In this document: positions 23,458 through 44,389 of the stretch, piece by piece | Layout: every line of letters begins with the position of its first letter | How positions within the stretch are numbered: position 1 is the first letter of the stretch | Assembly: GCA_003141495.1 (NCBI GenBank) | Contig: PLMC01000031.1 | Span: 88,417 to 146,169 of the forward strand | Source: Bacteroidales bacterium | GTDB taxonomy: Bacteria > Bacteroidota > Bacteroidia > Bacteroidales > VadinHA17 | Length of the DNA: 57,753 bases | Direction of reading: 5' to 3' | The notes under the pieces: generated by a model | Database searches by the model: none | The model's input: only the letters and a program-made list of their open reading frames with translations | What the model was told of the DNA's origin: nothing | Position numbers and translations under genes: made by a program

Positions 23458-23475
23458 AAGGAAGATATGATATTA

Positions 23476-25899: not shown

Positions 25900-26008
25900 G
25901 TATATGATATTATATAATAACTATTAACTCAAATACACATTCTTCTTTTCTTCCTATCACCCTTACACCCCTTCTTTCCTCATTCCTCAAACTTCACCCT
26001 AACTTTCT

Positions 26009-26075
26009 ACCCCCCAACCCCCCAAATGGGGGGCTTTCCTTGTTTTTAAGTCCCCCATATGGGGATTTAGGGGGT
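26009..26075. repeat. C-run/G-run inverted-repeat element (no gene), copy between permeases 2 and 3
   Basis: Left end 26009-26035 (ACCCCCCAACCCCCC then AAATGGGGGGCT) and right end 26048-26075 (AAGTCCCCCATATGGGG then ATTTAGGGGGT) are separated by 12 nt. The right end stops 3 nt from the stop codon of permease 3. Confidence 0.75.
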
Positions 26076-26078
26076 TAA

Positions 26079-28544
26079 TTACTCATATCTTAGAGCTTCG
26101 ACCGGATTCCTTGTTGCCACTTTCCAGCTTTGCCAACTCACAGTTAAAAGTGCAATTCCAAGTGCAAGCAAGCCGGCCAGGACAAAAATCCACCAGCTAA
26201 GGGCGGTTTTGTAGGCAAAACCTTCAAGCCATCTGTTCATGGCATAGTAAGCAACGGGCGAGGCAATCACAAAGGCAATGGCCACCCATTTTACAAAGGC
26301 CTTGTTGAGCATTGTCAATATTTCAGAAACTTTGGCTCCATTCACTTTCCGGATGCCGATTTCCTTTGTTCTTCGTTTGGTGGTAAAAATAGCCAGACTT
26401 AATAAACCCATACAGGAAATTATCAAAGCAAGCAATGCCGATGTTGTGAGGATATATTTAAAATTCAGATCATTTTGGTATTGCAACTCAAATTCCTTAT
26501 CTGAGAAAAAGTAAATGAACTCATCCCTTGGATAGAGCCTTTTCCAGATTTTTTCGATTTCTCTCACTGTACCAAGGATATTGGGTGTATTTAATTTAAA
26601 AGAATAATAACCCACCGACATTTCCCATTGCAAATTCTGAAAATATATTGACGGTTTAACCGGTTGATGAAGCGAAACGTGATGATAATTTTCAATAACA
26701 CCTTTCACCTTAAACGTATTCTGGCCAATCCTGAAAACTGACCCGATAGCATCTTCAGGTTTTTTATAGCCCATTGCTTCCGAGGCACACTGATTAACTA
26801 TCACCTCATCTGAAGTCCAGTTGGTTTCTTCGTTTATATTATTACCTGCAAGGATTGAAATATTGTACGTTTTTAAAAAAGAATCATCGATACTGATTTC
26901 ATTAAACGGTGAACTAAAAGGTTCGGCTGAATTTCCGGCGAATACATTGTCCTGAATCCGGCGAATTTCTTTTCCGGGGACTGATGAACTAACACTAAAT
27001 GAAGTTACCCCCGGCAGTGTAAGCGCTTCATTTTTAAAAGTTAAAAGTTTCGATGGAATTTCCGGACTATTGGTCATGCTCATTGGTGTATAACTAAACA
27101 GGGTTTGTTGGCCTGAAAAGCCAAGTTTTTCCTTCGTTACAAACTTCATTTGTTTGAAAATTCCAATCGTACAGATAATCAGGATAATGCTGATGGCAAA
27201 TTGCAGAACCACCAGAGCTTTTCGACCCGACCAGTGCTGGTTCAGAGCTACTGATTGGCCTTTCAGTGATAAAAAGATGGGCGTGCTGAAAACCAGTAAG
27301 TAAGGTAAAAGAGTCGAAATAAGTATACCTAGAAAAGAAATGATAACCATGACCAATAAAATGAAGCTGGATATTTTTTGTAAAGACAACAATAAGTTGA
27401 TAAATATTGAGGCAATTTGCACTGAAATGTAAAATGCAAGACCGTACAAAAACAAATTTTTTAAAAACAGTGTAGCAAAAACAGCTATTTTGCTCGAACC
27501 GTTCAATATCCTGATAGAATAACTTTTACGTTCTTCGATTGCCGAAATGGTGCTTAAATTCAAATAATTAACAATACAAACTACCAATATGACCATGGCG
27601 ATTATTATCAGAAAGTTCACCTGCGTAGTACTTCCGTTCGCATTGAGTTCGTCATTGAGGTTGGAATGCAGATGGATTGATTCAATGGGCTGAAAAATTA
27701 AGTTTATGGTACTTTTTTCCAGGTTTGGTGGTAACCCTACTTTCTTTATCGCCGGGAGAGTTGCTGATTTGACAGTTGTTATGTCGACATGTGGTTCAAG
27801 TCTGATATAACAGTGAGGCCTGAATTGAGTTGGGGAACTCCACCTGGAACGGGAATAAGGCGATGCTTTTTGATATGTGAAGCCTGGATTTTCAATGAGT
27901 GTCTGAGTAGTGTTATCGAAATTTCTCATATAATAGTATAGCGACTGGTAACTTCCCAAAACATCAACCTTTAGATGACTATTGACAGGGATATCTTTAA
28001 AAACAGATTTAACCAGAAACTTCCATCCTTCGTTTAAAGTAATCTCCTTATTCAGCGGATCTTCATTTCCGAAAAGTTTCTTTGCAAAAGATTCTGATAT
28101 TGCAATTCCGTGTATATCACCAAACAACTGGTTGGATTCCCTGTAAAGAATCTTACGCTCGAAGACACTGAAAAATGTTGTATCACTCCAAAACCAGTCC
28201 ACATTTTGAATAACTTTATCATGGTCGTATACCGTTATTACGTCACGCCCCAGGTTGCACTGTGACACAATACCAGGGATTTCGGCTTTAAGTAGTTCAG
28301 ATGATCCTTCAAAGTTTCTGGCCGACCGATACACCCTCCCGTCTTCATAAGATAAATCGAGTCCAAGTCGGTAAATCGATTGGGAATCCTTCCAGAAAGT
28401 GTCGTAGGAATACTCATACTTAATTTTTACTAAAAGGAAAATAACAATGGTAAAACCTATCACCAAACCCCAAAGCTGAATGACAGTAAGTAGTTTATTA
28501 TTTCTCAGGCTTTTGATCAGGATTTTTAAGGTGAAATTGTTCAT
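26079..28544 (-). CDS. MacB/FtsX-type ABC permease, array member 3
   Basis: At 821 residues this is the longest member. The plan is two MacB_PCD + FtsX halves with about eight TMs. The first coupling segment is degenerate (ERKSYSIRILNGSS, about 343); the second is RRTKEIGIRKVNGA (about 733). The C-terminus, ALSWWIFVLAGLLALG to NPVEALRYE, is the shared tail. Its stop codon is followed after 3 nt by the inverted-repeat element at 26009-26075. It lies 32 nt behind member 4, so both are likely cotranscribed. Confidence 0.9.
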   Translation of the reverse strand: MNNFTLKILIKSLRNNKLLTVIQLWGLVIGFTIVIFLLVKIKYEYSYDTFWKDSQSIYRLGLDLSYEDGRVYRSARNFEGSSELLKAEIPGIVSQCNLGRDVITVYDHDKVIQNVDWFWSDTTFFSVFERKILYRESNQLFGDIHGIAISESFAKKLFGNEDPLNKEITLNEGWKFLVKSVFKDIPVNSHLKVDVLGSYQSLYYYMRNFDNTTQTLIENPGFTYQKASPYSRSRWSSPTQFRPHCYIRLEPHVDITTVKSATLPAIKKVGLPPNLEKSTINLIFQPIESIHLHSNLNDELNANGSTTQVNFLIIIAMVILVVCIVNYLNLSTISAIEERKSYSIRILNGSSKIAVFATLFLKNLFLYGLAFYISVQIASIFINLLLSLQKISSFILLVMVIISFLGILISTLLPYLLVFSTPIFLSLKGQSVALNQHWSGRKALVVLQFAISIILIICTIGIFKQMKFVTKEKLGFSGQQTLFSYTPMSMTNSPEIPSKLLTFKNEALTLPGVTSFSVSSSVPGKEIRRIQDNVFAGNSAEPFSSPFNEISIDDSFLKTYNISILAGNNINEETNWTSDEVIVNQCASEAMGYKKPEDAIGSVFRIGQNTFKVKGVIENYHHVSLHQPVKPSIYFQNLQWEMSVGYYSFKLNTPNILGTVREIEKIWKRLYPRDEFIYFFSDKEFELQYQNDLNFKYILTTSALLALIISCMGLLSLAIFTTKRRTKEIGIRKVNGAKVSEILTMLNKAFVKWVAIAFVIASPVAYYAMNRWLEGFAYKTALSWWIFVLAGLLALGIALLTVSWQSWKVATRNPVEALRYE

Positions 28545-28576
28545 GTATAGTAGTTAAATTGTTTTTTTTGTGGTGC

Positions 28577-30973
28577 CTACTCGAATCGCAATGCCTCCAC
28601 TGGATTTCTGGTTGCCGTTTTCCAACTCAACCAGCTTACTGTTATCAGCGCAATTCCGAATGTGATTAAGCCTGCCAAAACAAAAAGCCATAGCGTGATA
28701 TCAATTCTGTAAGCAAATCCTTGAAGCCATTTGTACATAGTAATCCAAATTGCAGGGATTGCAATTATATACGATATTGTTATGAGTATAATGAATTCCC
28801 TGTTCAGAAGGTAGAGAATTTCGGAGACTTTTGCCCCGTTCAACTTACGGATACCGATCTCTTTGGTTCTCGATACAGTTGCCATCATTACAAGACCAAA
28901 AAGTGACAGACTGGTAATGATCACAGCCATTAGACTGAAAAGGATAAAACATCTGAAAAGTTGAATATGCCCTTTGTATTGTGAATTAAAATAATTGTCG
29001 AGAAAAAAGTACTCAAAATATGAATCCATAAAATGGTTCCTGAATTCATCGGTAACTTTGTCAACTATGTTTTTGATGTCGGGATTACTGAATCTTATAA
29101 AAATATAATATCCCACCTGGTCGCAGTTAAACAGTGTTGGTTTGACTTCCTGATCAAGTGAGTTCTGAAAGTATCCGTCAATAACCCCAACAACTTCACC
29201 AATATCTTCTTTAGCGTCGCTATCAAAGAGAGTTTTGCCTATACAATTCTCAAATTTATCGTCGCCTAAAGCCAGTGCCGCTTCCTTATTAAGTATCAGG
29301 TGTCTTGACCCGCCTAGCCAGTTATTTTCATCATCGAAGAATTGTCTTCCGGCAAGTAGTTTTACATTGAAGAATCTGAAGAAATTCGGAGCAACATCTG
29401 CCTGAAAGAACTGAAATCCCAGTTTTTCTTTACCTTTTATTGAAATTCCCCCTTTTACCCATGAGTTTTTTTCACCGGGAATGATAGTTGAGTATGTAAT
29501 TTCACTTATTCCGGGATGTTTAAGAAGTGCTTCCTGGAATGACTTCTGAGCCGTATTGAATTCTTTTGTTGTAGGGCGCTTGACAACAAGTGTTTTATTA
29601 ATATTCATGGTAAAGGCCTCTCTCTGCATATAACTGATCTGTCTGAGGGCACCTATAGTACATCCAATTAGTACAATAGCAATAATGAACTGACCTGCCA
29701 GAAGAAGTCTTCGGGATTTTTTACGGGTGTTAAAGCGAATATCCTTTCTGATAAAAGTAACTGGTGTTACATTGTATATTTTTAAACCAAGCAACAGTCC
29801 GGCCATAAGGCTCAAAGCAAGAAGAAATGATGATGGCAAAAGCCAGGTTCTGAGATTGAACAGGGAAGTTGTCGTGAAATTCAGACTCAAAAGATCTTTC
29901 AGGAACGGGAAAAAAAGAAAAAGCAGTGCAAAAGCCAGTAACAGGCTTATCATGCCTGTAATAAGGGCTTCTGTAATGAATTCGTAAATAATGTCTCTCC
30001 TGCTGGCTCCATTTATTATCCTGATCCCGATTACATTAATTCTTTTTCCCGTAACAGATGAGTAAAGATTGAAATAGTTAAAACCGGCACTTAACAGAAT
30101 CAGAAGGGCTATTATCAACAATACAGAAAGGTATTTAGCATTACCGTTTGTTTCAAATTCAAAACGGTAGGCTGAGTGCAGGTGGATATCAGTTACCGGT
30201 TGAAGACGGAATTCAATCGGAAAGTCAAGTTTTATATCTCTTGAAGAAAAATTCTCTTTTCCCAGTTGTGTTATTTCTCTTTCTATTTTTGACTTGTCAC
30301 TTCCTTCTTTTAGTAGAAAATATGTATTTGTATTGTTGCAACTATAACAGTATGAATTGTTTGTGAAAGTAGCCAGGGAAATAATGATATTGAATTTGAG
30401 ATGAGAATTTTCTGGTACATCTTCAACGACACCCTGTACAGTCAAAGGTCTGTTGCCCGGATTGACTGCAGAGATTAATTTACCGACTGGATTTTCACTT
30501 CCGAAATATTTCCTTGCAGTGGATTCCGTAATTACAACTGTATTAGGTTGTCGAAGAAAAGCGGATTTGTCTCCCGAAAGAATTTTGTGTGAAAAGATGT
30601 CGAAGAAAGAACTGTCTGCGAAAAGTGTCATTTCTTCTTTATAAGTCTGTTCCAGGGACCTGAAAAACAATGTTTCCTTTTTAACACGACAGAATTTTTT
30701 GATATCTGGAATTTTTTCAGCCGCTATCTGTCCGATGTAGTAGTTATTGCCGACACTTACATCGAGTCCGGTCTGATAGTGTCTGAAGAAAACGAGGCGC
30801 TGAATATTGCTCGCATTTTTAAAAAATCTGTCATAGCTTTTTTCGAATCCAATAAACTGGAATATCAGCAATACAGCAGTCATCCCTATTGCCATTCCCA
30901 GGATGTTTATGCTGCTTACTCCTTTGTTTTTCAGGATATTCCTAAATGCCAGCCGTATGTTTTTATGATTCAT
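28577..30973 (-). CDS. MacB/FtsX-type ABC permease, array member 4
   Basis: This protein of 798 residues starts at ATG 30973; an in-frame TTG at 30979 is less likely. Coupling segments are KRINVIGIRIINGAS (about 316) and SRTKEIGIRKLNGA (about 708). This member has the most divergent tail (ITLWLFVLAGLITFG, ending NPVEALRFE), so it has escaped the homogenisation seen in members 5 to 8. A tandem-repeat tract lies between its 5' end and member 5. Confidence 0.9.
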   Translation of the reverse strand: MNHKNIRLAFRNILKNKGVSSINILGMAIGMTAVLLIFQFIGFEKSYDRFFKNASNIQRLVFFRHYQTGLDVSVGNNYYIGQIAAEKIPDIKKFCRVKKETLFFRSLEQTYKEEMTLFADSSFFDIFSHKILSGDKSAFLRQPNTVVITESTARKYFGSENPVGKLISAVNPGNRPLTVQGVVEDVPENSHLKFNIIISLATFTNNSYCYSCNNTNTYFLLKEGSDKSKIEREITQLGKENFSSRDIKLDFPIEFRLQPVTDIHLHSAYRFEFETNGNAKYLSVLLIIALLILLSAGFNYFNLYSSVTGKRINVIGIRIINGASRRDIIYEFITEALITGMISLLLAFALLFLFFPFLKDLLSLNFTTTSLFNLRTWLLPSSFLLALSLMAGLLLGLKIYNVTPVTFIRKDIRFNTRKKSRRLLLAGQFIIAIVLIGCTIGALRQISYMQREAFTMNINKTLVVKRPTTKEFNTAQKSFQEALLKHPGISEITYSTIIPGEKNSWVKGGISIKGKEKLGFQFFQADVAPNFFRFFNVKLLAGRQFFDDENNWLGGSRHLILNKEAALALGDDKFENCIGKTLFDSDAKEDIGEVVGVIDGYFQNSLDQEVKPTLFNCDQVGYYIFIRFSNPDIKNIVDKVTDEFRNHFMDSYFEYFFLDNYFNSQYKGHIQLFRCFILFSLMAVIITSLSLFGLVMMATVSRTKEIGIRKLNGAKVSEILYLLNREFIILITISYIIAIPAIWITMYKWLQGFAYRIDITLWLFVLAGLITFGIALITVSWLSWKTATRNPVEALRFE

Positions 30974-31045
30974 GTCCAAATAAACTTATTTTTTATATTG
31001 TCATTCATCTTTTTAATCTCCTCTTCTCCCATTCTCCCATTTACT

Positions 31046-31128
31046 CTTTCTCCCCCTCACCCTTTCTCCCCCTCACCCTTTCTCTCCCTCACGCCTCACG
31101 CCTCACGCCTCACATCTCACACCTCACT
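31046..31128. repeat. Polypyrimidine tandem repeat: 16-bp x3 then 7-bp x5
   Basis: CTTTCTCCCCCTCACC occurs at 31046-31061 and 31062-31077, with a third diverged copy at 31078-31093. Five 7-bp units of the form (C/T)CTCAC(G/A/T) follow at 31094-31128 and run into the stop codon of permease 5. In the transcript of the array this is an A/G-rich stretch. Slippage could change the intergenic length. Confidence 0.75.
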
Positions 31129-33583
31129 ACTCGTATCGGAGAGCTTCGACCGGGTTCCTCGTCGCTGCCCGCCAGCTTTGCCAGCTTACTGTTAAGAGAG
31201 CAATTCCAAGGGCTATTATTCCTGACACTACAAATATCCACCAGCTTAGCTCTGTTTTGTATGCAAAATTCTGTAACCATTTGTACATTGCATAAAAGGC
31301 AATAGGACATGCGATTACAAAGGCTATAGCTACCCAATAGATAAAGTTCTTGTTTAAAAGGACCATCACCTCAGAAATTGTAGCTCCATTCACTTTTCGC
31401 AGACCTATTTCTTTGGTCCTGTTCTCGTTCATACTCAACGACAAACCTAAAATTCCCAGAATGCATAAAAAAACTGTTATTGAAGCAAATAGAAAAAAGA
31501 GATTGAGGGCTTTATAGTCTGATTTATAATAACCGGCTATTCTGTCGCTGAGAAATGTATAATGAAATACCTGGCCGGGAAAGACATTTTTCCATATTTC
31601 ATTTATTTTGTCAATCTCCCCGGGGAAGACTTTTGTATTATTTTTACCAGAACTCACTGAAGTTAAAAGCTTAATATTCACAATTCCGAAGCCTCCGGGA
31701 TTATTAAAAAATACACATGGTCTGATTTTATCCCTTAATGAACCGGAGTGAAAGTCGCCGACCACACCTTTTATATTTAAACTCATTCCACCAGGTCCCT
31801 TAATTATGGCTCCAATAGCTTCATCAGCATTTTTGAAGCCGATTTCCAGCAGAAATTCACTGTTTAAAATAATTGCAGCTGATGTATCCTTCGAAGAAAA
31901 ATTCTGTCCGGCTATAAGAGTGAATGAATATAAATTGAGATAAGAGCTGTCGACAAATTTGATCTCAGCATCAATTCTTTTTTCCTGATTATTAATATAC
32001 GAACTAAAGGAAGTCCATTGATGGGATTCCGCAGGCACAACAGAACTAAAACTCACACCTTTTATTCCCGGATCAGATATTAGTTCTGCGGATAAAGATG
32101 CCAGCTTTGATTTCGGATTCTCAGGCAATCCTGCATATATAATATTATCAGTTGTATATCCAAGTTCCTTATGATTGATAAAGTAAATTTGTTTGACAAT
32201 AAACAGTGTTGCAATAATCACCGATTGTGCTACGACAAACTGAAGAATTACACTTGTTTTTCCGAATATGTTACCTCTCCCTGAATAACCTCTATCACTT
32301 CCTTTCAGAAGATTGGACAACGATTTTAAATTCAGGTTTAATATTGAAAAAATTATTGAAAGAATGCTTCCGGCAAACAGAAGTCCAATAACAAGCATAA
32401 AGAAGGATAGATTTATCTCATGAAAATATCCCTGAGGAATGTCGATGAAAGAGTAGAAATTTTTAATAACAGGTAAAGTCAATTGCAGGCTGATTATCAT
32501 AGCGACAAAATTTACCAGTAGCGATTCTGTAAGAAACTGAAAAAACACAGAAACAGGTTTACTGCCCAGGATTAACCTTAATGCAATCTGTTTTCTCTGT
32601 TTAATGGTCTCGGCCAGAAAAAAGTTACTGTAGTTAAATGATGCTATAAGAAAAATAAATATGCCAATAAGTGTCAGCGCGAGAAGCAGCCCAGCACTTA
32701 CGGTACGATTATTATAATTTCCATATTGACTCTCTTTATGCACCCGTGAAAGTGGCTGCAATTTAAATTGCCTTCCTTCGAGTCTTTCAGATCCTGCATT
32801 TAACCCGTATATTTCCTTGAATTTTTCCTCTACCGAAACCAAATCGCTTCTTTCATTCAGGACCACATAACATTGAAAGTTATCTGATAAACTGCCCCAG
32901 TCTGTGGTGAACCCCGGATTAAGCTTTTCTGAAAAAGTTTTTAACGATAACAAAACTTTAAATGGGAGATCCGTATTTTCAGGAAGATCCTGAATGACCC
33001 CTTCTATGGTGAATTTTGTTCCGATAGTGATCAATTCACGACCAACAGGATCTTCACCAGGAAAGAGTTTTTGAGCTGTTTTTTCTGTAATAACTGCAGT
33101 AAATGGTTTATCCAGAACCTGTCCACCTTCACCTCTTACCCATTTTAGCCCGGTTTTTCCGAAGTCAAAAACATTAAAAAAGGAAGGTTCAGTCATAACA
33201 ACTCCATCATCAATTGTGAATGACTTTTCCACTGTGCTGTCCTTTGTCGGGATGTTGATTTTCTGACCATACAGGTAAAACATGGCAACTACATCTCGAA
33301 GCTCGGGAACTGATTTTTTAAATGCTTCGGGAAGGGGAAAATGAACACCGGTTCGATATTCCAGTCCCCCGATTGTATATTCCAAACCTGATGTAACCCT
33401 TACAACCCTGTAAGTGTTTTTGCTTTGCGTATGATAGTTGTCAAAACTTAATTCATAATTTACTTTAGTATATAAAACCAGGCAACTTATTAATCCTATC
33501 ACCAGGCTTGCAAAAATCAAAAGATTTGATTTATAGTTTCGTGTAATCCTTCTGATTGCTATTTTAAAATATTGTCCGTTCAT
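31127..33583 (-). CDS. MacB/FtsX-type ABC permease, array member 5
   Basis: This 818-residue permease has the two-half plan with about eight TMs. The first coupling segment is degenerate (KQRKQIALRLILGSK, about 333), the second NRTKEIGLRKVNGA (about 728). The periplasmic domains share little with neighbours beyond scattered motifs such as FNYSNF and GVVGDFHSGSL. The tail (TELSWWIFVVSGIIALG to RNPVEALRYE) is nearly the common one. It is isolated by 379 nt upstream and 153 nt downstream, so it may have its own promoter, though none is recognised. Confidence 0.9.
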   Translation of the reverse strand: MNGQYFKIAIRRITRNYKSNLLIFASLVIGLISCLVLYTKVNYELSFDNYHTQSKNTYRVVRVTSGLEYTIGGLEYRTGVHFPLPEAFKKSVPELRDVVAMFYLYGQKINIPTKDSTVEKSFTIDDGVVMTEPSFFNVFDFGKTGLKWVRGEGGQVLDKPFTAVITEKTAQKLFPGEDPVGRELITIGTKFTIEGVIQDLPENTDLPFKVLLSLKTFSEKLNPGFTTDWGSLSDNFQCYVVLNERSDLVSVEEKFKEIYGLNAGSERLEGRQFKLQPLSRVHKESQYGNYNNRTVSAGLLLALTLIGIFIFLIASFNYSNFFLAETIKQRKQIALRLILGSKPVSVFFQFLTESLLVNFVAMIISLQLTLPVIKNFYSFIDIPQGYFHEINLSFFMLVIGLLFAGSILSIIFSILNLNLKSLSNLLKGSDRGYSGRGNIFGKTSVILQFVVAQSVIIATLFIVKQIYFINHKELGYTTDNIIYAGLPENPKSKLASLSAELISDPGIKGVSFSSVVPAESHQWTSFSSYINNQEKRIDAEIKFVDSSYLNLYSFTLIAGQNFSSKDTSAAIILNSEFLLEIGFKNADEAIGAIIKGPGGMSLNIKGVVGDFHSGSLRDKIRPCVFFNNPGGFGIVNIKLLTSVSSGKNNTKVFPGEIDKINEIWKNVFPGQVFHYTFLSDRIAGYYKSDYKALNLFFLFASITVFLCILGILGLSLSMNENRTKEIGLRKVNGATISEVMVLLNKNFIYWVAIAFVIACPIAFYAMYKWLQNFAYKTELSWWIFVVSGIIALGIALLTVSWQSWRAATRNPVEALRYE

Positions 33584-33696
33584 CTAAATCAAGTTATTTA
33601 TTCTCAATAAGTAATTTTTTCTTATCTCTCAATCTCGTTTCAATTTTCTCTATTAGTTTATGATGCATTGATAACTATACTTTTTTTGAAATCCTT

Positions 33697-33738
33697 TAAC
33701 CGCAAAGAGCACAAAGTTTGCGCAAAGGGCACAAAGTT
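33697..33738. repeat. Dispersed CGCAAAG repeat, tandem pair
   Basis: CGCAAAGAGCACAAAGTT (33701-33718) and CGCAAAGGGCACAAAGTT (33721-33738) are direct repeats with a 20-bp period and one difference. The preceding TTAAC and first unit match the repeat at 15228-15249 in inverse orientation. Confidence 0.65.
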
Positions 33739-33813
33739 GAATTCCATACTTTTATCTTTCCCCTTTTGTCTTTTATCTTTCATGTTTTCCTCACACCACA
33801 CCTCCAACTTTTT

Positions 33814-33896
33814 ACCCCCCAACCTGCCAAATGGGGGGCTAAACATGTTCTAAAGTCCCCCAAATGGGGGTCCCGATAGCTATCGGGATAGGGGGT
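33814..33896. repeat. C-run/G-run inverted-repeat element with an embedded palindrome
   Basis: The left end begins ACCCCCCAACCTGCC at 33814 and the right end closes with AGGGGGT at 33896. The right end is interrupted by the perfect 18-bp palindrome TCCCGATAGCTATCGGGA at 33871-33888, which is absent from the copies at 26009, 19345 and 51341. Confidence 0.7.
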
Positions 33897-33899
33897 AGA

Positions 33900-33923
33900 T
33901 TATTCATATCTCAATGCCTCCAT
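33900..33923 (-). pseudogene. Fossil permease C-terminus (MEALRYE-stop)
   Basis: Read on the minus strand the codons are M-E-A-L-R-Y-E-stop, matching the VEALRYE-stop that ends the array permeases. Upstream codons do not match. It sits just before an inverted-repeat element, the position a functional permease 3' end occupies at 26079. It is only eight codons long, so chance is possible, but the duplicate at 36505-36528 keeps the same reading. Confidence 0.45.
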
Positions 33924-33962
33924 CCCGATACGCTTCGCTATCGAGGATCTCCGCTCTCCTCA

Positions 33963-36287
33963 CTACTCGTACCTGAGAGCTTCGACCGGGTTCCTCGTAG
34001 CTGCCCTCCAGCTCTGCCAGCTGACAGTAAGTAATGCTGTTCCCAAAGCGATTATTCCTGCTAAAGCAAATATCCACCAGCTCAATTCTGTTTTATAAGC
34101 GAAATTATTCAGCCATTTATCCATTGCATACCATGCAACCGGGAAAGCTAATACAATTGCGAGGGCAACCCATTTTATAAAATCTTTATTGAGCATGACT
34201 ATAACTTCAGTTACCTTTGCACCGTTGATTTTGCGAATACCTATCTCTTTTGTCCGTCGTTCAGTGCTGTGAATAGAGAGACCGAAAAGGCCGATACTGG
34301 CTATAAAAACGGCAAGCAGTGCAAATGAGAACAGAAGGTTTTCGAATTTTTTCTCCGGTTTATATTGCAGATTATAAGTTTTATCGAGGAAATTATATTC
34401 AAAAGAGAAGGCTGGACAAATTTCCTCCCAAACGCTCTTTATTCTTTCCAAAGCTCCGTATATGTTGTTTTCAGAAATTTTCACATTGATATAATTCAGA
34501 TAATCCGGAGTATAAAACAGAAGCAATGGTGATTGCTGATAGTTAAGTCCTCTGTAATGGAAATCATAAATAATACCGATGATCTCTCCTTTCATTCCGT
34601 TTCCCGGAAGGATGACTTGTCCTACTGGATTCTTTAAATCGTAAAGTTTTATGGCAGTTTCATTAATAAGGTAAGTCGCTTTTAAATCAGCCGGATTATT
34701 CATTGAAAAGTTTCGTCCTTCTTTCATTTTGATCTCTAACGTCTTTAAATAATCCTGATAGACATAGTTATTAAAATATTTATTCTCCTTACCTTCTATT
34801 TTGACGCAACACCATGATCCCCAGTAATTACCAGGGATCCTGCTTGAACATGAAACATTGTTTATCTCAGGATATTTCAGCAGCTTTTCTTTGAATAGAT
34901 CAAGATGACCCGTTAATTGAGAGTTTATTTTAAGAATGACGATGTTAGTTTTATTGAACCCCAGATCCTTCTTATTCATGTACCGGAATTGCTTATTGGC
35001 TATAAGTGTACTGCAGATCAAAGTTATTGAAACGAAATTCTGGAAAACTATTAATCCGTTCCTGATACCATTATGTCTTAAATAACCGGGGAACCACTTT
35101 TTATCTGTATTAATAGTATAAGAACTGATATAGAAACTTGGATAAATTCCGGTAATTAATATGAATATCAAGGAGCCTCCGGCAAAAAGTATAAGGTTTT
35201 TAGAGGTACATAAATCTACGACACTAACTGGAAATCCGGTTAAGTTATTTAATATTGGATTCAGGAACCACAAAAGAAAAACAGAAACTACTAAGGAAAT
35301 CAGAATAAGCAGGATCGTTTCGAACATGAATTGTATAATCAGATTAAACAGGGAAACTCCCAGTATTTTTTTTATACTTACCTCCTTTGATCTTGCTAGA
35401 GCATTTGCAATAGTCAGATTGATGAAATTAATAGCAGCCAGCAGAAGAATGAAAATTGAAACGGCAATCAGTATTTTATTATATAATAGATTTCCATGTT
35501 TTGTTACTACCTCATTTTCCACCTCCGAAGAGTAATAAATTTGTGAAAATGGTCTTAACCTGAAGGGATCATTGTAACCTACCTTTTTGAGCATATCCAG
35601 AATTGTTTTCTCAGATCCGGCAATGGGTATGTCGTCAGGAAGCAAAAGATAGGTAGGGTAGCTCCATCCGTCATACTGCTTGAGAACTCCTTTATAACGA
35701 ATCTGTTCAAGGCTGATTATTGATGCAAGTATATCTGTTTTAAAGTGCAGGAAAGGCTGATCTTTTATTACTCCGGTAACTGTAAAGTCATATTGATTTT
35801 CAAACCTGATAATCTTACCAATTATATCAGTGCTTCCAAACAGTCTTTTTGCCTGAGACTCTGAAAGAACCAAGGAGAAAGGTTGATTAAGAGCGCCTTT
35901 GGATTCGCCGGCAATAAACTCAAGTTGAAATACTTTAAAAAATGTGCTGTCTGCAAAAGTCAGATCATTGATGTTAAAGGGATTGTTATTTATCAGAATG
36001 CCAACATCTCCCCAGAAATTAAGTCTTGTTCCGATAACCTGATTGGTCAGGTTTTTATTTATTGCATCACCAAGAAATGAAGGCATACTTGCCCAATTCG
36101 TTTCCAATCGGCAGATCCTATCACTATTCCGAATTCCTTTGTCAAATTTATTTTCATAAATTACATATGCCCAGATAATTATTACAGCAACTATACTAAT
36201 CACTAAACCAAGAATCTTTATAATGTTTGTTGTAAAATTCTTTATAAAATTTCTGAAAGTGATTCTAAGCAATCCTTCTAAAAACAT
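33963..36287 (-). CDS. MacB/FtsX-type ABC permease, array member 6 (flanked by direct repeats)
   Basis: This 774-residue permease has coupling segments ARSKEVSIKKILGVS (about 303) and RRTKEIGIRKINGA (about 686). The tail TELSWWIFALAGIIALG to RNPVEALRYE is encoded by DNA almost identical to that of member 7. The gene lies between two 301-bp direct repeats (33787-34087 and 36392-36692), so recombination between them would remove its body and fuse its 3' end to member 7. A (CTT)5 tract (AAG repeats in the transcript) lies about 18-32 nt upstream of the ATG. Confidence 0.9.
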   Translation of the reverse strand: MFLEGLLRITFRNFIKNFTTNIIKILGLVISIVAVIIIWAYVIYENKFDKGIRNSDRICRLETNWASMPSFLGDAINKNLTNQVIGTRLNFWGDVGILINNNPFNINDLTFADSTFFKVFQLEFIAGESKGALNQPFSLVLSESQAKRLFGSTDIIGKIIRFENQYDFTVTGVIKDQPFLHFKTDILASIISLEQIRYKGVLKQYDGWSYPTYLLLPDDIPIAGSEKTILDMLKKVGYNDPFRLRPFSQIYYSSEVENEVVTKHGNLLYNKILIAVSIFILLLAAINFINLTIANALARSKEVSIKKILGVSLFNLIIQFMFETILLILISLVVSVFLLWFLNPILNNLTGFPVSVVDLCTSKNLILFAGGSLIFILITGIYPSFYISSYTINTDKKWFPGYLRHNGIRNGLIVFQNFVSITLICSTLIANKQFRYMNKKDLGFNKTNIVILKINSQLTGHLDLFKEKLLKYPEINNVSCSSRIPGNYWGSWCCVKIEGKENKYFNNYVYQDYLKTLEIKMKEGRNFSMNNPADLKATYLINETAIKLYDLKNPVGQVILPGNGMKGEIIGIIYDFHYRGLNYQQSPLLLFYTPDYLNYINVKISENNIYGALERIKSVWEEICPAFSFEYNFLDKTYNLQYKPEKKFENLLFSFALLAVFIASIGLFGLSIHSTERRTKEIGIRKINGAKVTEVIVMLNKDFIKWVALAIVLAFPVAWYAMDKWLNNFAYKTELSWWIFALAGIIALGTALLTVSWQSWRAATRNPVEALRYE

Positions 36288-36304
36288 AATCTAAAATATT
36301 TGGT

Positions 36305-36319
36305 CTTCTTCTTCTTCTT
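36305..36319. repeat. (CTT)5 microsatellite upstream of permease 6
   Basis: Five CTT triplets on the plus strand, that is (AAG)5 on the coding strand, start 18 nt upstream of the permease 6 ATG. The position overlaps the expected ribosome-binding or promoter spacer region. Confidence 0.7.
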
Positions 36320-36418
36320 TTAAACTCCTCTTTTCCCATATTCTCCTTTCCCCCATTCTCCCTTTCTCCATTTCACCCTTTCACTCCCTCATTCCTCACA
36401 CCACACCTCCAACTTTTT

Positions 36419-36501
36419 ACCCCCCAACCTGCCAAATGGGGGGCTAAACTTGTTCTAAAGTCCCCCAAATGGGGGTCCCGATAGCTATCGGGATAGGGGG
36501 T
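36419..36501. repeat. C-run/G-run inverted-repeat element with an embedded palindrome, second copy
   Basis: This is the same structure as 33814-33896, with one base changed inside, including TCCCGATAGCTATCGGGA. It was copied as part of the 301-bp duplication. Confidence 0.7.
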
Positions 36502-36504
36502 GGA

Positions 36505-36528
36505 TTATTCATATCTCACCGCCTCCAT
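36505..36528 (-). pseudogene. Fossil permease C-terminus (MEAVRYE-stop)
   Basis: Minus-strand codons M-E-A-V-R-Y-E-stop parallel the tail of the array permeases and the fossil at 33900-33923. It is part of the 301-bp duplicated block. Confidence 0.45.
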
Positions 36529-36567
36529 CTCGATATGCTTCGCTATCGAGGATCTCCGCTCTCCTCA

Positions 36568-38970
36568 CTACTCGTATCGGAGAGCTTCGACCGGGTTCCT
36601 CGTAGCTGCCCTCCAGCTCTGCCAGCTGACAGTAAGTAATGCTGTTCCCAAAGCGATTATTCCTGCTAAAGCAAATATCCACCAGCTCAATTTTTCTTTA
36701 TATGCGAAGTTTTCAAGCCATTTGTGCATTACATACCAGGCAATAGGACAGGCAATAATAAAGGAGATTGTTACCCATCTTATAAATGTTGTATTCAGCA
36801 TTACCATCACTTCTGATATACGCGCTCCGTTTATTTTTCGAATGCCAATTTCTTTAACTCGCCTGTTTATGACCAGCAATGTCAAACCTAATAATCCCAA
36901 TGATGAAATTATTATGGAAACAAGTGATGCATATCCGATAATCTTGCTCCATTTTTCTTCAGCTTTATATCTCTGATTCAGTTGTTCGTCCCATAACTTG
37001 AAATCCAGTTCTTTGCCTGGCGCTATGTCTTTCCATGTCTCCAGGATAAATTGCATAACTTTATCCAATTGATCGGCACGGTACTTAATAAAAAGGAAAT
37101 TGCCTCTGTCTCCTGTATAAGTTCTTAAGATCAACATTAATGGTTCAATTTCTTCTTTCAATGAGTCAAAATGGAAATCTTTTACCACACCGGATATTCT
37201 GAGATTCTTTCCGTCCATCTGTATTATCTGGCCCACAATATTATCATCAAAACCCAGACGTAACAACAACTTTTCATTAACAATGACTGATTGATTTTCC
37301 TGAATCTCATCAGTGAAGTTTTCTCCCTGGATGACCTTTAAATTCAAAGTAGGGACATAGTTTTTATCAACATTTAAGATTCTGGTCAGGATATATTCTC
37401 CCTTGTTATTTTTGATACGATTATTTCCTCTTCCATCTATAAAGTCCCTGTCTGTAAGTGTCACGTCTGTAATCCCGGGGTAATTTTTCAACCGGTCACG
37501 CAACGCAAGCTTATCGCTGTTATCGATTTGATAAACACGTAGATATAAAATATTTTGTGACGAAAATCCCAGATCTTTGTGTTTCATGTAATTAGTCTGG
37601 CGGACAACTGCTATGGTTAAGATAATCAGAACAATGGAAAGTCCATATTGAAGCATAACAAAGATGCCTGTAATATTAACTTTTTCTCCTTTATCATGCT
37701 TTTCAATTGTCTGGTTCGGCTGAATTCCTGTCAGCTTGACAATGGGGAAAAAACTTGTCGACATAACTATAAATAATACGCAGGCAATGACAAAGACAAA
37801 AACATGAGGAAGAATAATTAATCCGGTATAAATTCCATTTTGTGCAATCTCATTAAAGACTGGAAAAAACAAGAAGCATAGTTCAACACCCAGGAGAACC
37901 GATACCGAAGTAATAATCAGACTTTTTGTAAAGAATAAGTTGAATATATTTCTTTTTCCAGCTCCCATAGCCTTTCTGATGCCAACTTCTCGTTCTTTAC
38001 TAAATGACTGACCCAAAGAAAGCAGGACAAAATTGATGCAAGCAATTATAAGTATAAGAGCTCCTATGATTGAAAGAATATATAAGCTGGTTCTATTGTT
38101 CTTTAGTTCGTAATCAGTATTTACTTTACTGAGATATGTTTCAGTAATCGGTAAAGAAAACGCAGTAAAGGCCTCATCGCTGTTTATCAGAACATTACGA
38201 TTTTTTTGCTCATCCAGCAGATTCGTGTAATGTTCTTTCAGTAATTTATTAATTTGTTCTTCAGCTAAATGGGTATTCTCATTCCCGGTCACTTTATAAA
38301 AAATAGTTGAATTTCCAAACATGTTGCTTGAGGAGTTAAATGCTCCTTCATATTTATAGGGAATTAAGGCATCAAATTGGAGACTGGAGTTTTTTGGAAC
38401 ATCTTCCATTATTCCTGAAATAGTAAAGGGTTGATCACCGGTTTTTATAAAGAAAACAGGCTTTCCGATCAGTTCTTCTTTTGTGCAGGAGTCTATGGCT
38501 GCGAATTTATCAGCCAAACTCAAAGTGATTACTATTTCATCAGGATTCTCAAATACTTTGTCTTTATTACCAATAATCATTTTGAAACTGAATATCTTAA
38601 AAAAGTCCTGTTCGGTGATAAATGTTTTTTCCTCGAAATTTTGATTTTCAAATTTCATGCTTGGATTATGAGCGTTGCGAAATGCAGTGCTCCGTTTAAC
38701 CTGGGGTATTTTATTCTTCAATATTTCAGATAGTTTCGGATCGAGGTAAATTGACGAAACTTTTGTCCCATCAGCATGTCCAATAAAATAATTAACTCTG
38801 AAAATGCTTTCCTTGTTTTCATGAAAACTATTATAGCCAATCTCTTGAGATACATATAAATATATTAACAAGAGACAGGCAGAAGCAACAGACAAGCCAA
38901 TAACAGTTATGAATGAATTTAATTTATTTTTCATTATGTTCCGAACTGCTATCAGGATGTTATATTTCAT
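36568..38970 (-). CDS. MacB/FtsX-type ABC permease, array member 7
   Basis: This protein of 800 residues starts at ATG 38970; an in-frame TTG at 38976 is the alternative. Coupling segments are SKEREVGIRKAMGAG (about 330), close to the classic MacB/LolC form, and RRVKEIGIRKINGA (about 710). The tail EKLSWWIFALAGIIALG to RNPVEALRYE shares its DNA with member 6. It follows member 8 by 23 nt, so both are probably on one transcript starting upstream of member 8. Confidence 0.9.
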   Translation of the reverse strand: MKYNILIAVRNIMKNKLNSFITVIGLSVASACLLLIYLYVSQEIGYNSFHENKESIFRVNYFIGHADGTKVSSIYLDPKLSEILKNKIPQVKRSTAFRNAHNPSMKFENQNFEEKTFITEQDFFKIFSFKMIIGNKDKVFENPDEIVITLSLADKFAAIDSCTKEELIGKPVFFIKTGDQPFTISGIMEDVPKNSSLQFDALIPYKYEGAFNSSSNMFGNSTIFYKVTGNENTHLAEEQINKLLKEHYTNLLDEQKNRNVLINSDEAFTAFSLPITETYLSKVNTDYELKNNRTSLYILSIIGALILIIACINFVLLSLGQSFSKEREVGIRKAMGAGKRNIFNLFFTKSLIITSVSVLLGVELCFLFFPVFNEIAQNGIYTGLIILPHVFVFVIACVLFIVMSTSFFPIVKLTGIQPNQTIEKHDKGEKVNITGIFVMLQYGLSIVLIILTIAVVRQTNYMKHKDLGFSSQNILYLRVYQIDNSDKLALRDRLKNYPGITDVTLTDRDFIDGRGNNRIKNNKGEYILTRILNVDKNYVPTLNLKVIQGENFTDEIQENQSVIVNEKLLLRLGFDDNIVGQIIQMDGKNLRISGVVKDFHFDSLKEEIEPLMLILRTYTGDRGNFLFIKYRADQLDKVMQFILETWKDIAPGKELDFKLWDEQLNQRYKAEEKWSKIIGYASLVSIIISSLGLLGLTLLVINRRVKEIGIRKINGARISEVMVMLNTTFIRWVTISFIIACPIAWYVMHKWLENFAYKEKLSWWIFALAGIIALGTALLTVSWQSWRAATRNPVEALRYE

Positions 38971-38993
38971 GTGCAATTATATGTTTTATTATA

Positions 38994-41306
38994 CTACTCA
39001 TATCGTAACGCTTCGACCGGGTTCCTCGTAGCCGCCCTCCAGCTTTGCCAGCTGACAGTAAGTAATGCTATTCCCAAAGCGATTATTCCTGCCAAAGCAA
39101 ATATCCACCAGCTCAGTACAGTTTTATAAGCGAAATTCTCAAGCCATTTGTGCATAATAAAGTAAGTAACCGGGCAAGCTATTACAAATCCTATTAAGAC
39201 CCATTTGAAGAATTTTGTGTTTAGCAGAATTATTATATTAAGAATGGTAGCTCCATTTACTTTCCTCAGGCCGATCTCTTTTGTTCTTTTTTTGATTGTA
39301 TATTCTGCCAGCCCCAATATACCAAGACAGGATATTAATATTGCCAGAATTGCAGAAAGGCGTATTGACGAAACCAGCCTCTCTTCTCCTTTATACATGG
39401 AGTTAATCCATTCATCATAAAACTGGTATTTTAATTCATGTCCCGGACATACTTCCTTCCATGTTGCTTTTAAAGTGTTAATTACTCTCTGAAGGTTCCC
39501 GGGATTTACCCTTAAAGTCAGATGTGAGATCCCCATCTCAGAAGAGATTGGAATCACAAGCGGTCCGATCTTGTTGTACATATTGGCAAAATGGAAATCT
39601 TTTACGATTCCTATAATTTCTGACCCATGGTATTTTTCCCCGAGAAAGGTTTTCCAGCCAGTTAATTTAAAAGCTGTTTCATTTATGTAACACACTTTAT
39701 TAAAATCGGAAGGCCGAAGCTCTCTTCCCATTATAACCGGTATCCTGAAGACTTTGAGAAAGGAGGTATCAACGTTCAGCTCATTTACAATAATGTCTTT
39801 GCTTTCTAATTCATTCCACGAGGATGTTAAATATATGCTCCCGGGAGTTCCGTGTGAGAAGCAGACATCTGAAATCGATGGATCAGTTAAAAGCCTGTCG
39901 CGGATAGCCTTAGCTTTATTAAAAAGCTGCCAGTGTACATCAACTCTTAAAAGCCTGTTTGTATCAAATCCAAAATCCTTTGACCTGACAAAATCAATCT
40001 GTTTTGATAGGATTATCAAGGTAATAATGAGCGATACGGATACTGTGTATTGAATTATGTTGAGGACAGCTCTTAATCCAAAGGAGCTGTTTTTTCCTGA
40101 GTTATTCTTATTTAAAATGTCGATAGGTTTACGCCTGGAAATTGATAGAGCTGGATATATGCCTGATATAAAAGATATTACAAAGATACCTAATACTAAC
40201 CAGCCTGACCGAAATGATTGGAACAAAGTCGACAATTCAATCTTACTGTCCAGAAATTCTTCGAAAAATGGAACCCAAAGAGCAGAAAGCTGAATTGCAA
40301 GAAGAAAAGAAACAATACAGACAAGAAATGCTTCAACCATAAACTGCGTAAAAATCTGTATTCTGCTTGCTCCAATTGTCTTTTTTATGCCTATCTCCTT
40401 CAGCCTGTCGGAATGTGTTGCCGTTGTGAGATTTATATAGTTAAAGACGGCCAGCAGGATAATAATGAGACTTATTACCGAAAGTACTTTGATTAATTTT
40501 AAGTTCGCATGCAGAGTTTGACTTCTTTCAATCCCCTGCATAAAGTAGGATTCCTTAAAAGGGACCAGATTAATTCTGTTGATCTTGTACCCAACCTTAT
40601 ACTCAATAGAACTGAAATTTTTAGTTAAACGCTCTTCAAGACCTGAATTGTTTTCTCTGTTTTTTAGTAGCAGGAATAATCTGAAATAATTAACATTATT
40701 ACCCTGTCCATCGCTGCTTCCTTCATATATAATCTTTAATTTAGAATTAGTGAGAAAATCGCCTCTGATACTTGACTTTGAAGAAAAATCTTTTATCACA
40801 GCGGTAACTACCAAAGGTTCCCTGTATTCAGCTACAAGTGTTTTTCCCAGAGGATTTTCACTGCCAAATATTTTCTTTGCAAAACTCTCAGTTAAAACAA
40901 CATCATTCAAATTCGCCAGCGCAGTATTGAATTCTCCCAAAATAAACTGAGATGAAAAAATGTTGAAAAAGGAATTATCTGTTACTATCATCTGACCACT
41001 GAATGGCACATCCTCATATGTGACATTGGTGGTGTAGCTATTGTAACGACATGCATCATCTATATCAGGGTAGTTTGCGATAAAGGATTCACGAAAATCC
41101 TCCCTTACCGATGCATTATTTCCATTGGCAAAAACACGGTATATATTGCTTATCCTGGGATATTCACTGTCGATACTAAACTCCTTTATCAGGTACGCAA
41201 TTAGTACCAGCGCCATTGATATGCTTATTGAGAATCCGGCAATTGTAATTAATGAGGTAGCTTTATTTTTAAAGACGTTCCTGATTATATGCTTTACATT
41301 TATCAT
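38994..41306 (-). CDS. MacB/FtsX-type ABC permease, array member 8 (promoter-proximal)
   Basis: At 770 residues this is the shortest and the first gene transcribed. TM1 is at about 20-40. Coupling segments are DRLKEIGIKKTIGAS (about 305) and KRTKEIGLRKVNGA (about 680), both close to consensus. The last 110 bp differ from members 6 and 7 by only a handful of bases. It is divergent from the sigma-54 response regulator gene; a TATGTTTG box 66 nt upstream could start transcription. Confidence 0.9.
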   Translation of the reverse strand: MINVKHIIRNVFKNKATSLITIAGFSISISMALVLIAYLIKEFSIDSEYPRISNIYRVFANGNNASVREDFRESFIANYPDIDDACRYNSYTTNVTYEDVPFSGQMIVTDNSFFNIFSSQFILGEFNTALANLNDVVLTESFAKKIFGSENPLGKTLVAEYREPLVVTAVIKDFSSKSSIRGDFLTNSKLKIIYEGSSDGQGNNVNYFRLFLLLKNRENNSGLEERLTKNFSSIEYKVGYKINRINLVPFKESYFMQGIERSQTLHANLKLIKVLSVISLIIILLAVFNYINLTTATHSDRLKEIGIKKTIGASRIQIFTQFMVEAFLVCIVSFLLAIQLSALWVPFFEEFLDSKIELSTLFQSFRSGWLVLGIFVISFISGIYPALSISRRKPIDILNKNNSGKNSSFGLRAVLNIIQYTVSVSLIITLIILSKQIDFVRSKDFGFDTNRLLRVDVHWQLFNKAKAIRDRLLTDPSISDVCFSHGTPGSIYLTSSWNELESKDIIVNELNVDTSFLKVFRIPVIMGRELRPSDFNKVCYINETAFKLTGWKTFLGEKYHGSEIIGIVKDFHFANMYNKIGPLVIPISSEMGISHLTLRVNPGNLQRVINTLKATWKEVCPGHELKYQFYDEWINSMYKGEERLVSSIRLSAILAILISCLGILGLAEYTIKKRTKEIGLRKVNGATILNIIILLNTKFFKWVLIGFVIACPVTYFIMHKWLENFAYKTVLSWWIFALAGIIALGIALLTVSWQSWRAATRNPVEALRYE

Positions 41307-41613: not shown

Positions 41614-41669
41614 TGTAAATCAGGGAAGGGGGCAAAAAATATAGGGAAAGAAGTTTGATATACAACGAT

Positions 41670-43037
41670 ATGCAAAACCAAAAAGTCAACATTCTTGCTA
41701 TTGATGACAACAAGAGCATCCTGAGCGCTCTTGAAATATTGCTCTTGCCTGAATTTCATGAGGTTACTCTACTTTCAAATCCAAACCAGATACTATCTGA
41801 ATTATCTAAAAAAGATTACAACCTGGTAATACTTGACATGAATTTCAAGGCCGGGGTCAATACCGGAAATGAAGGAATTTACTGGCTGGAAAGAATAAAA
41901 GAGAGCAAGCCAGAAATATCAGTTGTCATGATAACGGCTTACGGAGATATTAATACTGCTGTCAAAGCTCTCAAGTCAGGTGCATCGGACTTCGTTCTGA
42001 AACCATGGGATAATGAGAAATTGCTGGCAACTCTTAAGCTTGCAATTCAGCTTAATTTGTCTAAAAAGGAGGTGAGGCAGCTCAAAGAAAGAGAAACTGA
42101 GCTTAAGATGGAGATAAACCGTGACCAGCGGTTTATTATTGGTTCATCTCCACAGCTTATGAGTGTTCTGAATATGGTGAGGAAAGTTGCAAAGACCGAT
42201 GCAAACGTGCTTATTACGGGAGAAAACGGGACAGGTAAGGAATTGATTGCCCAGGAGATTCATCGGCTTTCAGCCAGAGCCAAAGAGGTTCTTGTGAGTA
42301 TTGATATGGGCGCACTAAGTGAGACTCTGTTTGAAAGTGAATTGTTCGGACATATGAAAGGAGCTTTTACCGATGCCCAAGAAAACAGGCAGGGTAAATT
42401 TGAAATTGCGGATAAGGGTACTCTTTTTCTCGATGAGATTGGGAATTTATCATTTCAACTACAGGCCAAGCTGCTTGCAGCCATTGAAAACCGCCAGATT
42501 ACACGCATAGGATCAAATCAGCTCATTCCCACCGATATACGACTTATATGTGCGACCAACAGGAATCTTGAAAACATGGTTCACGAAGGTCTCTTCAGGG
42601 AGGATCTTCTGTACAGGATTAACACTATTCAAATTGAATTGCCCCCTCTGAGAGACAGGGGGAATGATATTTTTATTCTTGCTGAATTCTTTCTTAAAAA
42701 ATATGCTTACAAATACAATAAGCCCAGTCTTAAAATCAACCAGCAGGCACATGAAAAGCTGCTTAAATATTCATGGCCGGGTAATATCCGTGAGCTTCAG
42801 CATACAATTGAGAAAGCGGTAATATTAAGTGAAACTTCTGTTATAAAATCTGATGATCTTTATTTAAAGCATCCCGGATCAATTAGCAGCAACAGCTCTT
42901 TTACTACACTTGAAGAAATGGAAAAACAGATGATTCAGCGAGCCCTTGAGAAAAATAATGGTAACTTCACTGCAGCAGCTGACCAGCTTGGTATAACCAG
43001 GCAAACTCTCTATAACAGGTTTAAAAAATCGATGTGA
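41670..43037 (+). CDS. Sigma-54-dependent response regulator (NtrC family)
   Basis: This protein has 455 residues from ATG 41670; a TTG at 41655 is the alternative. A receiver domain (D12, D13, phosphoacceptor D56, T89, K111) is followed by an AAA+ domain with Walker A GENGTGKE (184-191), the sigma-54 contact loop GAFTDA (231-236; GAFTGA is more usual) and Walker B LFLDEIG. A Fis-type helix-turn-helix closes it (FTAAADQLGITRQTLYNRF). It activates sigma-54 promoters when phosphorylated, presumably by the kinase encoded next. Placement opposite the permease array suggests the array as target. Confidence 0.93.
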   Translation: MQNQKVNILAIDDNKSILSALEILLLPEFHEVTLLSNPNQILSELSKKDYNLVILDMNFKAGVNTGNEGIYWLERIKESKPEISVVMITAYGDINTAVKALKSGASDFVLKPWDNEKLLATLKLAIQLNLSKKEVRQLKERETELKMEINRDQRFIIGSSPQLMSVLNMVRKVAKTDANVLITGENGTGKELIAQEIHRLSARAKEVLVSIDMGALSETLFESELFGHMKGAFTDAQENRQGKFEIADKGTLFLDEIGNLSFQLQAKLLAAIENRQITRIGSNQLIPTDIRLICATNRNLENMVHEGLFREDLLYRINTIQIELPPLRDRGNDIFILAEFFLKKYAYKYNKPSLKINQQAHEKLLKYSWPGNIRELQHTIEKAVILSETSVIKSDDLYLKHPGSISSNSSFTTLEEMEKQMIQRALEKNNGNFTAAADQLGITRQTLYNRFKKSM

Positions 43038-44389
43038 TGTTCAGTAAAAGCCTCTATTTAAATATCATTATCAGAGTTATACTTATTGTGCTGTTTTCTG
43101 TTGTTCTGAGTTACTTTGTTGTAGTTGATTGGTCAATACGTTTTTCTATTATCTGCATTCTTATAATAGTTTTTCTCACCGTAAATCTCATTTTATATCT
43201 CAATAGAACAAACAGAAAAATCAGGTTTTTCTTCGATTCCGTGAGGAATGATGATTCAAACCTCTCTTTTTCAGCTGAGACTAAAAATTCCTCTTTGAGA
43301 GAATTGTATCACAGCATGAACAGAGTAAACCATCAGATTCAACAGCTAAAAATTGAAAACAGACAACAGGAACAGTACTTCAGAACTTTACTGGAACATC
43401 TTGCTGCTGGTATAATTACATATAATGACAAAGGCTTTATTTTACACGCCAATTCATCGGCAAAAAAACTTCTCTCAATTGATGTTCTTACTCATTTACA
43501 ACAGATTGAGCGTAAAGACCATAAGCTCTTTGAGACGATAAACAGTATTAAACCATTTGAAAGGAAACTTATTGCAGTTACTGCAGAAGCTGGAGATATA
43601 CAACTTTCGCTGAAAGCAACATCCTTCAAAACAAATGAAAATGAGCTGGTAATACTCTCAATCCAGGATATCAAGAATGAACTCGATGAAAAAGAGATTG
43701 AATCATGGATGAAACTAATCAGAGTATTAATGCACGAAATCATGAATTCTATTACCCCGATAACGTCCCTTTCGGAAAGTCTGTCGAATATATATAGTAC
43801 AGGAGGCAAACCCATTTTACCCGAACAGGTTAATGTTAAGACTATAGCTACCACATTACAGGGACTGAATGTTATTAAAGAACAGGGGAAGGGACTTATG
43901 TCATTTGTGGAATCATACAGGAAGCTTACCCGTGTACCCGAACCCGAAAAAAAATTCTTTAAAGTGGCTGATCTGATAGGCCGGGTACATATACTTTATA
44001 ACTCCCTTGATAACAGCGACAAAACAAAATTTTCTGTTTCACTGAAAAAGACTGATCTTGAGATTTTCGCGGATCAAAACCTCATTTCACAGGTTTTAAT
44101 TAACCTTTTAAAAAATGCGCTGGAAGCCAACGAAAATAATAGTAACGGACAGATAAGAATTGTTGTAAATGAAGGATTAAACAGCCACCATGAAATATGT
44201 GTTATTGACAATGGTCCCGGAATTCCTGAGGGAAATATTGACGAGATATTTGTCCCGTTTTTTACTACCCGACAAAACGGTTCCGGAATCGGACTGAGCA
44301 TCTCAAAACAGATCATGAGAGTTCATGGAGGAAACCTGAAAGTCCGGTCAGTGCCGGGTAAAGAGACTGTGTTCTGCCTGAGTTTCTAA
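43037..44389 (+). CDS. Sensor histidine kinase (NtrY/NtrB-like)
   Basis: This 450-residue kinase has two TM helices within the first 60 residues and almost no periplasmic loop. A PAS domain follows (about 115-210), then a dimerisation domain with phospho-accepting H233 in MHEIMNSITP. The HATPase domain has NLLKNALEAN, VIDNGPGIP and GSGIGLSISKQIM. The lack of a sensory loop suggests that it senses a membrane or cytoplasmic signal. The start ATG overlaps the regulator stop by one base (a GTG at 43034 is also possible), so the pair is cotranslated. Its 3' end overlaps the convergent LolC/E-like gene by 4 nt. Confidence 0.93.
   Translation: MFSKSLYLNIIIRVILIVLFSVVLSYFVVVDWSIRFSIICILIIVFLTVNLILYLNRTNRKIRFFFDSVRNDDSNLSFSAETKNSSLRELYHSMNRVNHQIQQLKIENRQQEQYFRTLLEHLAAGIITYNDKGFILHANSSAKKLLSIDVLTHLQQIERKDHKLFETINSIKPFERKLIAVTAEAGDIQLSLKATSFKTNENELVILSIQDIKNELDEKEIESWMKLIRVLMHEIMNSITPITSLSESLSNIYSTGGKPILPEQVNVKTIATTLQGLNVIKEQGKGLMSFVESYRKLTRVPEPEKKFFKVADLIGRVHILYNSLDNSDKTKFSVSLKKTDLEIFADQNLISQVLINLLKNALEANENNSNGQIRIVVNEGLNSHHEICVIDNGPGIPEGNIDEIFVPFFTTRQNGSGIGLSISKQIMRVHGGNLKVRSVPGKETVFCLSF

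Follow-up and report, generated by a model that had tools for sequence, protein, structure and literature searches.

Near-identical 301-bp repeats suggest recombination at the shared 3′ ends of old permease genes in a Bacteroidales array

Two neighbouring permease genes in a Bacteroidales genome, old and strongly diverged in their bodies, end in nearly the same 301 bases. These 301-bp repeats very probably arose when the 3′ ends of the two genes recently underwent ectopic homologous recombination: copying and swapping of gene ends among the highly diverse members of the array would have given permeases 6 and 7 their common ending. The repeat is best read as a recombination footprint at a shared gene tail and not as proof that permease 6 hops in and out. 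In the mechanism that we propose, a 41-codon C-terminal tail, strongly conserved in protein and common to all array permeases, would give genes with bodies of just ~46% DNA identity a stretch of ~120 bp in which they are homologous. An exchange within this island, as gene conversion or unequal crossover, would replace tails, would sometimes bring the post-stop hairpin and the spacer element along, and could join any body to any tail. Over evolution, the order of the bodies would be reshuffled and their tails would cease to follow them, at least one body having likely been exchanged horizontally.

The stretch analysed (the window; 57,753 nt, C15:88417-146169) belongs to a draft genome, apparently assembled from a metagenome, of 3.5 Mb in 135 contigs that is 90% complete. 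It carries eight head-to-tail permease genes of the FtsX/MacB type (~800 amino acids) on the minus strand at 21058-41306: permeases 1-5 at 21058-33583, permease 6 at 33963-36287 (774 amino acids), permease 7 at 36568-38976 (802 amino acids) and permease 8 at 38994-41306 (770 amino acids). Permeases 6 and 7 each contain two FtsX domains and MacB_PCD, and permeases 6, 7 and 8 score above the Pfam gathering threshold for both PF02687 and PF12704, as members of the FtsX-like/MacB-type superfamily. Permease arrays of this kind are found in many Bacteroidota genomes, and NCBIfam calls the nearest family duplicated permeases. That family, TIGR03434 (ADOP), was the best match of all eight proteins, which resemble ADOP permeases as ~800-amino-acid duplicated FtsX/MacB permeases of large families but score 160–240 bits, below the curated cut-off of 622.3. 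The array proteins thus appear to be relatives of the ADOP family, not members.

Copy A of the repeat (33787-34087) consists of the 3′ end of permease 6 plus spacer, and copy B (36392-36692) of the 3′ end of permease 7 plus spacer. Base-by-base comparison confirmed a gapless alignment at an offset of 2605 and fixed the number of mismatches, put at about 8 in the earlier note, at exactly 8 of 301. They lie at window positions 33845, 33897, 33914, 33915, 33925, 33931, 33972 and 33974, leaving perfect runs of 58, 51, 16, 0, 9, 5, 40, 1 and 113 nt. In a repeat search of 33000-38000, the pair (33787-34086 and 36392-36691; spacing 2605, 97% identity) was the sole direct repeat of at least 40 nt. Outside it, identity at the 2605 offset is at chance level on the distal side; on the coding side it is ~70% and then reaches background. 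Genome-wide, copy A has copy B as its best match with an E-value of 1.3e-144, so that their likeness is far beyond chance. As had also been proposed, each copy takes in the last 125 nt of its gene, namely 33963-34087 in permease 6 and 36568-36692 in permease 7. The coding part of copy A matched permease 8 (92% over 123 nt), permease 5 (82%) and permeases 1, 2 and 3 (72–77%) as well, and permease 4 was not among the matches listed in this genome-wide search. Assembly error is an unlikely source of the repeat, since the 8 mismatches tell the copies apart and the same pattern occurs in the genome of an isolate, Puteibacter caeruleilacunae.

Permeases 6 and 7 are 29–30% identical in amino acids and 46% in nucleotides over their bodies, where the same codon is used at 0.34–0.39 of the shared residues. 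Their tails are 98% identical in DNA, and of the 36 residues that agree across the last 41 codons, 35 are encoded by the same codon; the tails of permeases 6 and 8, and of 7 and 8, are 90–91% identical. Orthologs of permease 6 at 62–77% identity occur in five other genomes of the genus (77, 72, 66, 63 and 71%), and a search of 60 relatives returned no full-length match above 36% for permease 7. Since its body is ~30% identical to that of permease 7 and it has these orthologs elsewhere, permease 6 arose neither by a recent change in copy number nor as a recent copy of permease 7. Its tail is 0.68–0.79 identical in DNA to the tails of its own orthologs vs 0.98 to that of permease 7; thus, the paralogous segments are more alike than the orthologous ones while their flanks differ, which is the pattern of concerted evolution. 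In a control comparison with the G073 ortholog, body and tail of permease 6 were each 76% identical in nucleotides, and at the synonymous level the tail was the lowest of 18 windows.

Repeated bacterial genes such as rRNA operons and tuf genes are familiar cases of concerted evolution by gene conversion. There too, paralogous segments in one genome resemble each other more than orthologs do across species, but in the array just the last ~120 bp of strongly diverged genes are involved and the bodies are fully divergent. In the silent-cassette systems of pilin and VlsE, variable parts are swapped between constant ends. The likeness lies in conversion between related genes of one genome; in the permease array, by contrast, it would be the constant end that is swapped while the variable body stays whole, and the permease copies look intact, none being known as a silent donor.

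Across the relatives, mean tail similarity was 0.706 within genomes and 0.685 between genomes, and none of 1000 label shuffles reached the within-genome value. The excess is slight, so recent homogenisation would affect a minority of tails at any time. The apparent habit of sharing and swapping tails is seen across related Bacteroidales. Outside the genus, paralogs had a mean DNA identity of 0.63 in tails vs 0.48 in bodies, and the extremes were tails of 0.98 in Puteibacter and 0.92 in a Carboxylicivirga metagenome-assembled genome, with bodies at 0.45–0.46. The two 98% tails in Puteibacter are followed by unrelated post-stop DNA, which suggests conversion, and another pair in that genome is alike both past the stop codon and at the beginning of the following gene. 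Given these two patterns, both kinds of event, conversion and crossover, may occur.

The earlier note took permease 6 for a cassette that crossover between the repeats would delete or duplicate, always restoring an intact hybrid frame. The geometry bears this out, in that the interval is 2605 bp and the frame stays intact. However, wherever in the last 3–123 coding nt the crossover falls, the hybrid protein is that of permease 7, and the reciprocal product, tested for one crossover, was permease 6; hence this pair reshuffles no protein. It is possible but on balance doubtful that permease 6 is a cassette which one crossover between the repeat copies inserted or could excise, through unequal crossover or integration of a circle with one tail; this reading overlaps with our preferred explanation, being its crossover variant. 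Direct repeats do flank permease 6 exactly and leave the frames intact, and array membership varies widely between genomes. Moreover, in G035 the tail module lies directly upstream of the same permease 5 with another body in front: the junction of og14 with permease 5 has a different body from that of permease 6 with permease 5 but the same tail and module (tail identity 0.87, post-stop identity 0.83), which suggests a crossover. Against the cassette, permease 6 already stands before permease 5 in G075, with a different tail, so that the two may be long-standing neighbours and the repeat may postdate the insertion. In data with one genome per species, no deletion, duplication or circular product and no strain lacking permease 6 came to light. 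Among the 60 relatives there is also no permease 7 ortholog to compare with, and the 98% tails of Puteibacter, next to unrelated post-stop DNA, favour tail-only conversion in that genome.

Gene order is consistent with exchange at the tail. Where the downstream permease was known, the downstream ortholog was kept in 6 of 105 ortholog pairs; the adjacency of permeases 5 and 4 recurs in G005. Thus, the further claim that the array expands, shrinks and reshuffles holds insofar as its content and order differ between species, but we read the repeat as a copied or swapped tail and not as a device built for excision. When the downstream gene is shared, the tails of different bodies are slightly more alike (0.708 vs 0.686 otherwise, p = 0.02), which fits some crossovers in the tail. 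A comparison of same and different downstream neighbours, meant to tell conversion from crossover, gave p = 0.73 and, with six same-neighbour pairs, did not separate the two. RecA-type recombination would be the agent, and the tail would be the exchange point in most rearrangements.

Integrons hold arrays of diverse gene cassettes with a common 3′ sequence and a reshuffled order, and rely on an integrase and attC sites. The permease array is alike in joining diverse genes with a common 3′ sequence in reshuffled order but differs in that the shared part is coding. Scans of window ORFs with Pfam or NCBIfam, taking in the entire array and a large part of its flanks, found no integrase or recombinase domain, and homologous recombination would be the simpler mechanism. 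We think it improbable that the 41-codon tail is a dedicated recombination connector, kept alike by selection or by a local nuclease linked to the hairpins and DUF559. If it were, the array could acquire, lose and reorder bodies and trade them between species, and every body would still end in a functional C-terminus; the outcome would resemble that of an integron but need no integrase.

Each repeat copy consists of three parts in the order of the coding strand: the last 125 nt of the gene, a post-stop module and a hairpin element with C-rich and G-rich arms. The shared coding tail (minus strand, as delimited by sequence comparison in both genes; 33963-34087 and 36568-36692) comprises about 41 codons and in permease 6 runs from LSWW to ATRNPVEALRYE and the stop codon. 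The post-stop module reads TAGTGAGGAGAGCGGAG, then a small hairpin, then an in-frame second C-terminal motif (EALRYE or EAVRYE plus stop) resembling an older gene end that has been displaced. In permease 6 the module (33900-33962, minus strand) contains TGAGGAGAGCGGAG, the hairpin CGATAGCGAAGCGTATCG at 33926-33943 and the relic MEALRYE with its stop ending at 33900; in permease 7 (36505-36567, minus strand) the hairpin is at 36531-36548 and the relic reads MEAVRYE plus stop. The third part, a dispersed element with CCCCC..GGGGG arms, lies at 33801-33899, where it encloses a nested palindrome (TCCCGATAGCTATCGGGA, 33871-33888), and a repeat search placed its second copy at 36406-36504. Within this genome 39 matches to it, most of them partial, have E ≤ 0.1, including a few places counted on both strands. 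The post-stop hairpin occurs twice in this genome, both times at the tails of permeases 6 and 7, and it is thus no genome-wide mobile element there. In G003 a different hairpin occurs three times, always at permease tails, and in G064, G016 and G028 a similar hairpin is present away from permeases too. A search of 33400-36800 against Rfam gave 0 matches.

Relic second C-termini lie within 260 nt past the stop codon in 20 of 110 permeases, as against 0 in composition-shuffled controls, and in many genomes they come after small hairpins. These relics count in favour of recombination at the tail, and they are also among the observations that speak for a different driver of tail changes, a mobile hairpin/DUF559 element that would land at permease stops and carry or duplicate the gene end. 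The window itself has an ORF of DUF559, an endonuclease-like family, at 18800-19201 on the minus strand; it lies between C-rich and G-rich hairpin arms past the downstream end of the array, between a Nudix gene and an esterase gene, and this unit is possibly related to the spacer element of the repeats. Many genomes of the genus have similar DUF559 ORFs with arms of this type, and several of these ORFs lie directly past permease stop codons. In G013:C125 (L049) and G003:C133 14690-15460 (L051), the ORF and its arms lie between an intact permease end and a repeated end of 45–57 nt, so that this unit could be a mobile element carrying or duplicating the 3′ end of the gene. Beside non-permease genes, however, DUF559 elements come without a duplicated gene end, which rules out target-site duplication as a general rule. 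The Puteibacter tails are homogenised with no obvious hairpin past the stop, and no boundary could be drawn for the element. We therefore consider such an element an unlikely driver of the tail changes. A search of the open-access literature turned up nothing relevant on DUF559 mobile elements or permease tail conversion. At G075:C152 (L070/L084), permease tail and hairpin element form a tandem repetition of ~128 bp, with an orphan tail left past the gene.

Recombination at the tail, our preferred explanation, also bears on how tails and bodies compare between species, where most of the relatives are represented by draft assemblies. Between paralogs the tail is the most conserved part in protein, yet in close ortholog pairs it is often the least alike DNA window: it was the lowest or second-lowest 41-codon window by nucleotide identity in 11 of the 16 such pairs examined. 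Synonymous identity was lower in the tail than in the body in 36 of 43 ortholog pairs with at least 75% amino acid identity (Wilcoxon 6.5e-7, for non-independent pairs that have sequences in common). The contrast is clearest in G006/G027, with a median of 99% nucleotide identity over the body windows and 72% in the tail, the G027 tail being located at a contig end. Bodies and tails were 0.92 vs 0.76 identical in G035/G066, and 0.89 vs 0.75 between permease 2 and G066. The junction at the start of the tail could in part be the mere end of homology, and an apparent junction in G035:C68, a 94-bp deletion at the tail, was discarded as a scaffold gap of N. Along G006/G027 (G006:C248 41794-44154 vs G027:C63 18-2381), identity is ~87% in the upstream genes and 99% from near the gene start through the body, and drops at the tail. 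This profile suggests that the body was likely exchanged horizontally between species.

The same comparisons make it very unlikely that strong selection on the tail alone, through protein and codon or RNA constraint, produced the pattern without recombination. The C-terminal ATRNPVEALRYE is almost invariant in protein and hairpins are present in the 3′ ends, as selection would have it, but selection predicts orthologous tails at least as alike as the bodies, and close pairs often show the tail as the least alike part. Many paralog tail pairs share codons little more than their bodies do, and the noncoding spacer was copied as well. If one gene had recently been duplicated in tandem and its body had then diverged fast, the tandem arrangement and the near-identical ends would be accounted for, but this reading can be virtually dismissed, as the bodies are saturated at synonymous sites (~0.39 same codon), the independent permease 6 orthologs in five genomes already refute it, and a 97% identical noncoding spacer cannot match the age of a saturated body.

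If tails are exchange points, whole-gene trees would mix two histories, array content could change quickly, and one short segment could seem the most conserved in protein and the least conserved in DNA. Tail exchange would offer a simple, testable account of how the members of one gene family grow apart but keep uniform ends.

The upstream end of the array (41655-45630) encodes a sigma-54 response regulator, a histidine kinase and a 414-amino-acid FtsX protein, and near the arrays of G006, G032 and G035 lies a protein with an ending like that of the 414-amino-acid FtsX gene. Given this ending and the regulators at the array end, the array may be a regulated export locus. Directly past the stop codon of permease 5 (31046-31126) there are degenerate short repeats of the TGAGGYGTGAG type, and similar runs follow permease stops in G005, G017, G032 and G035.
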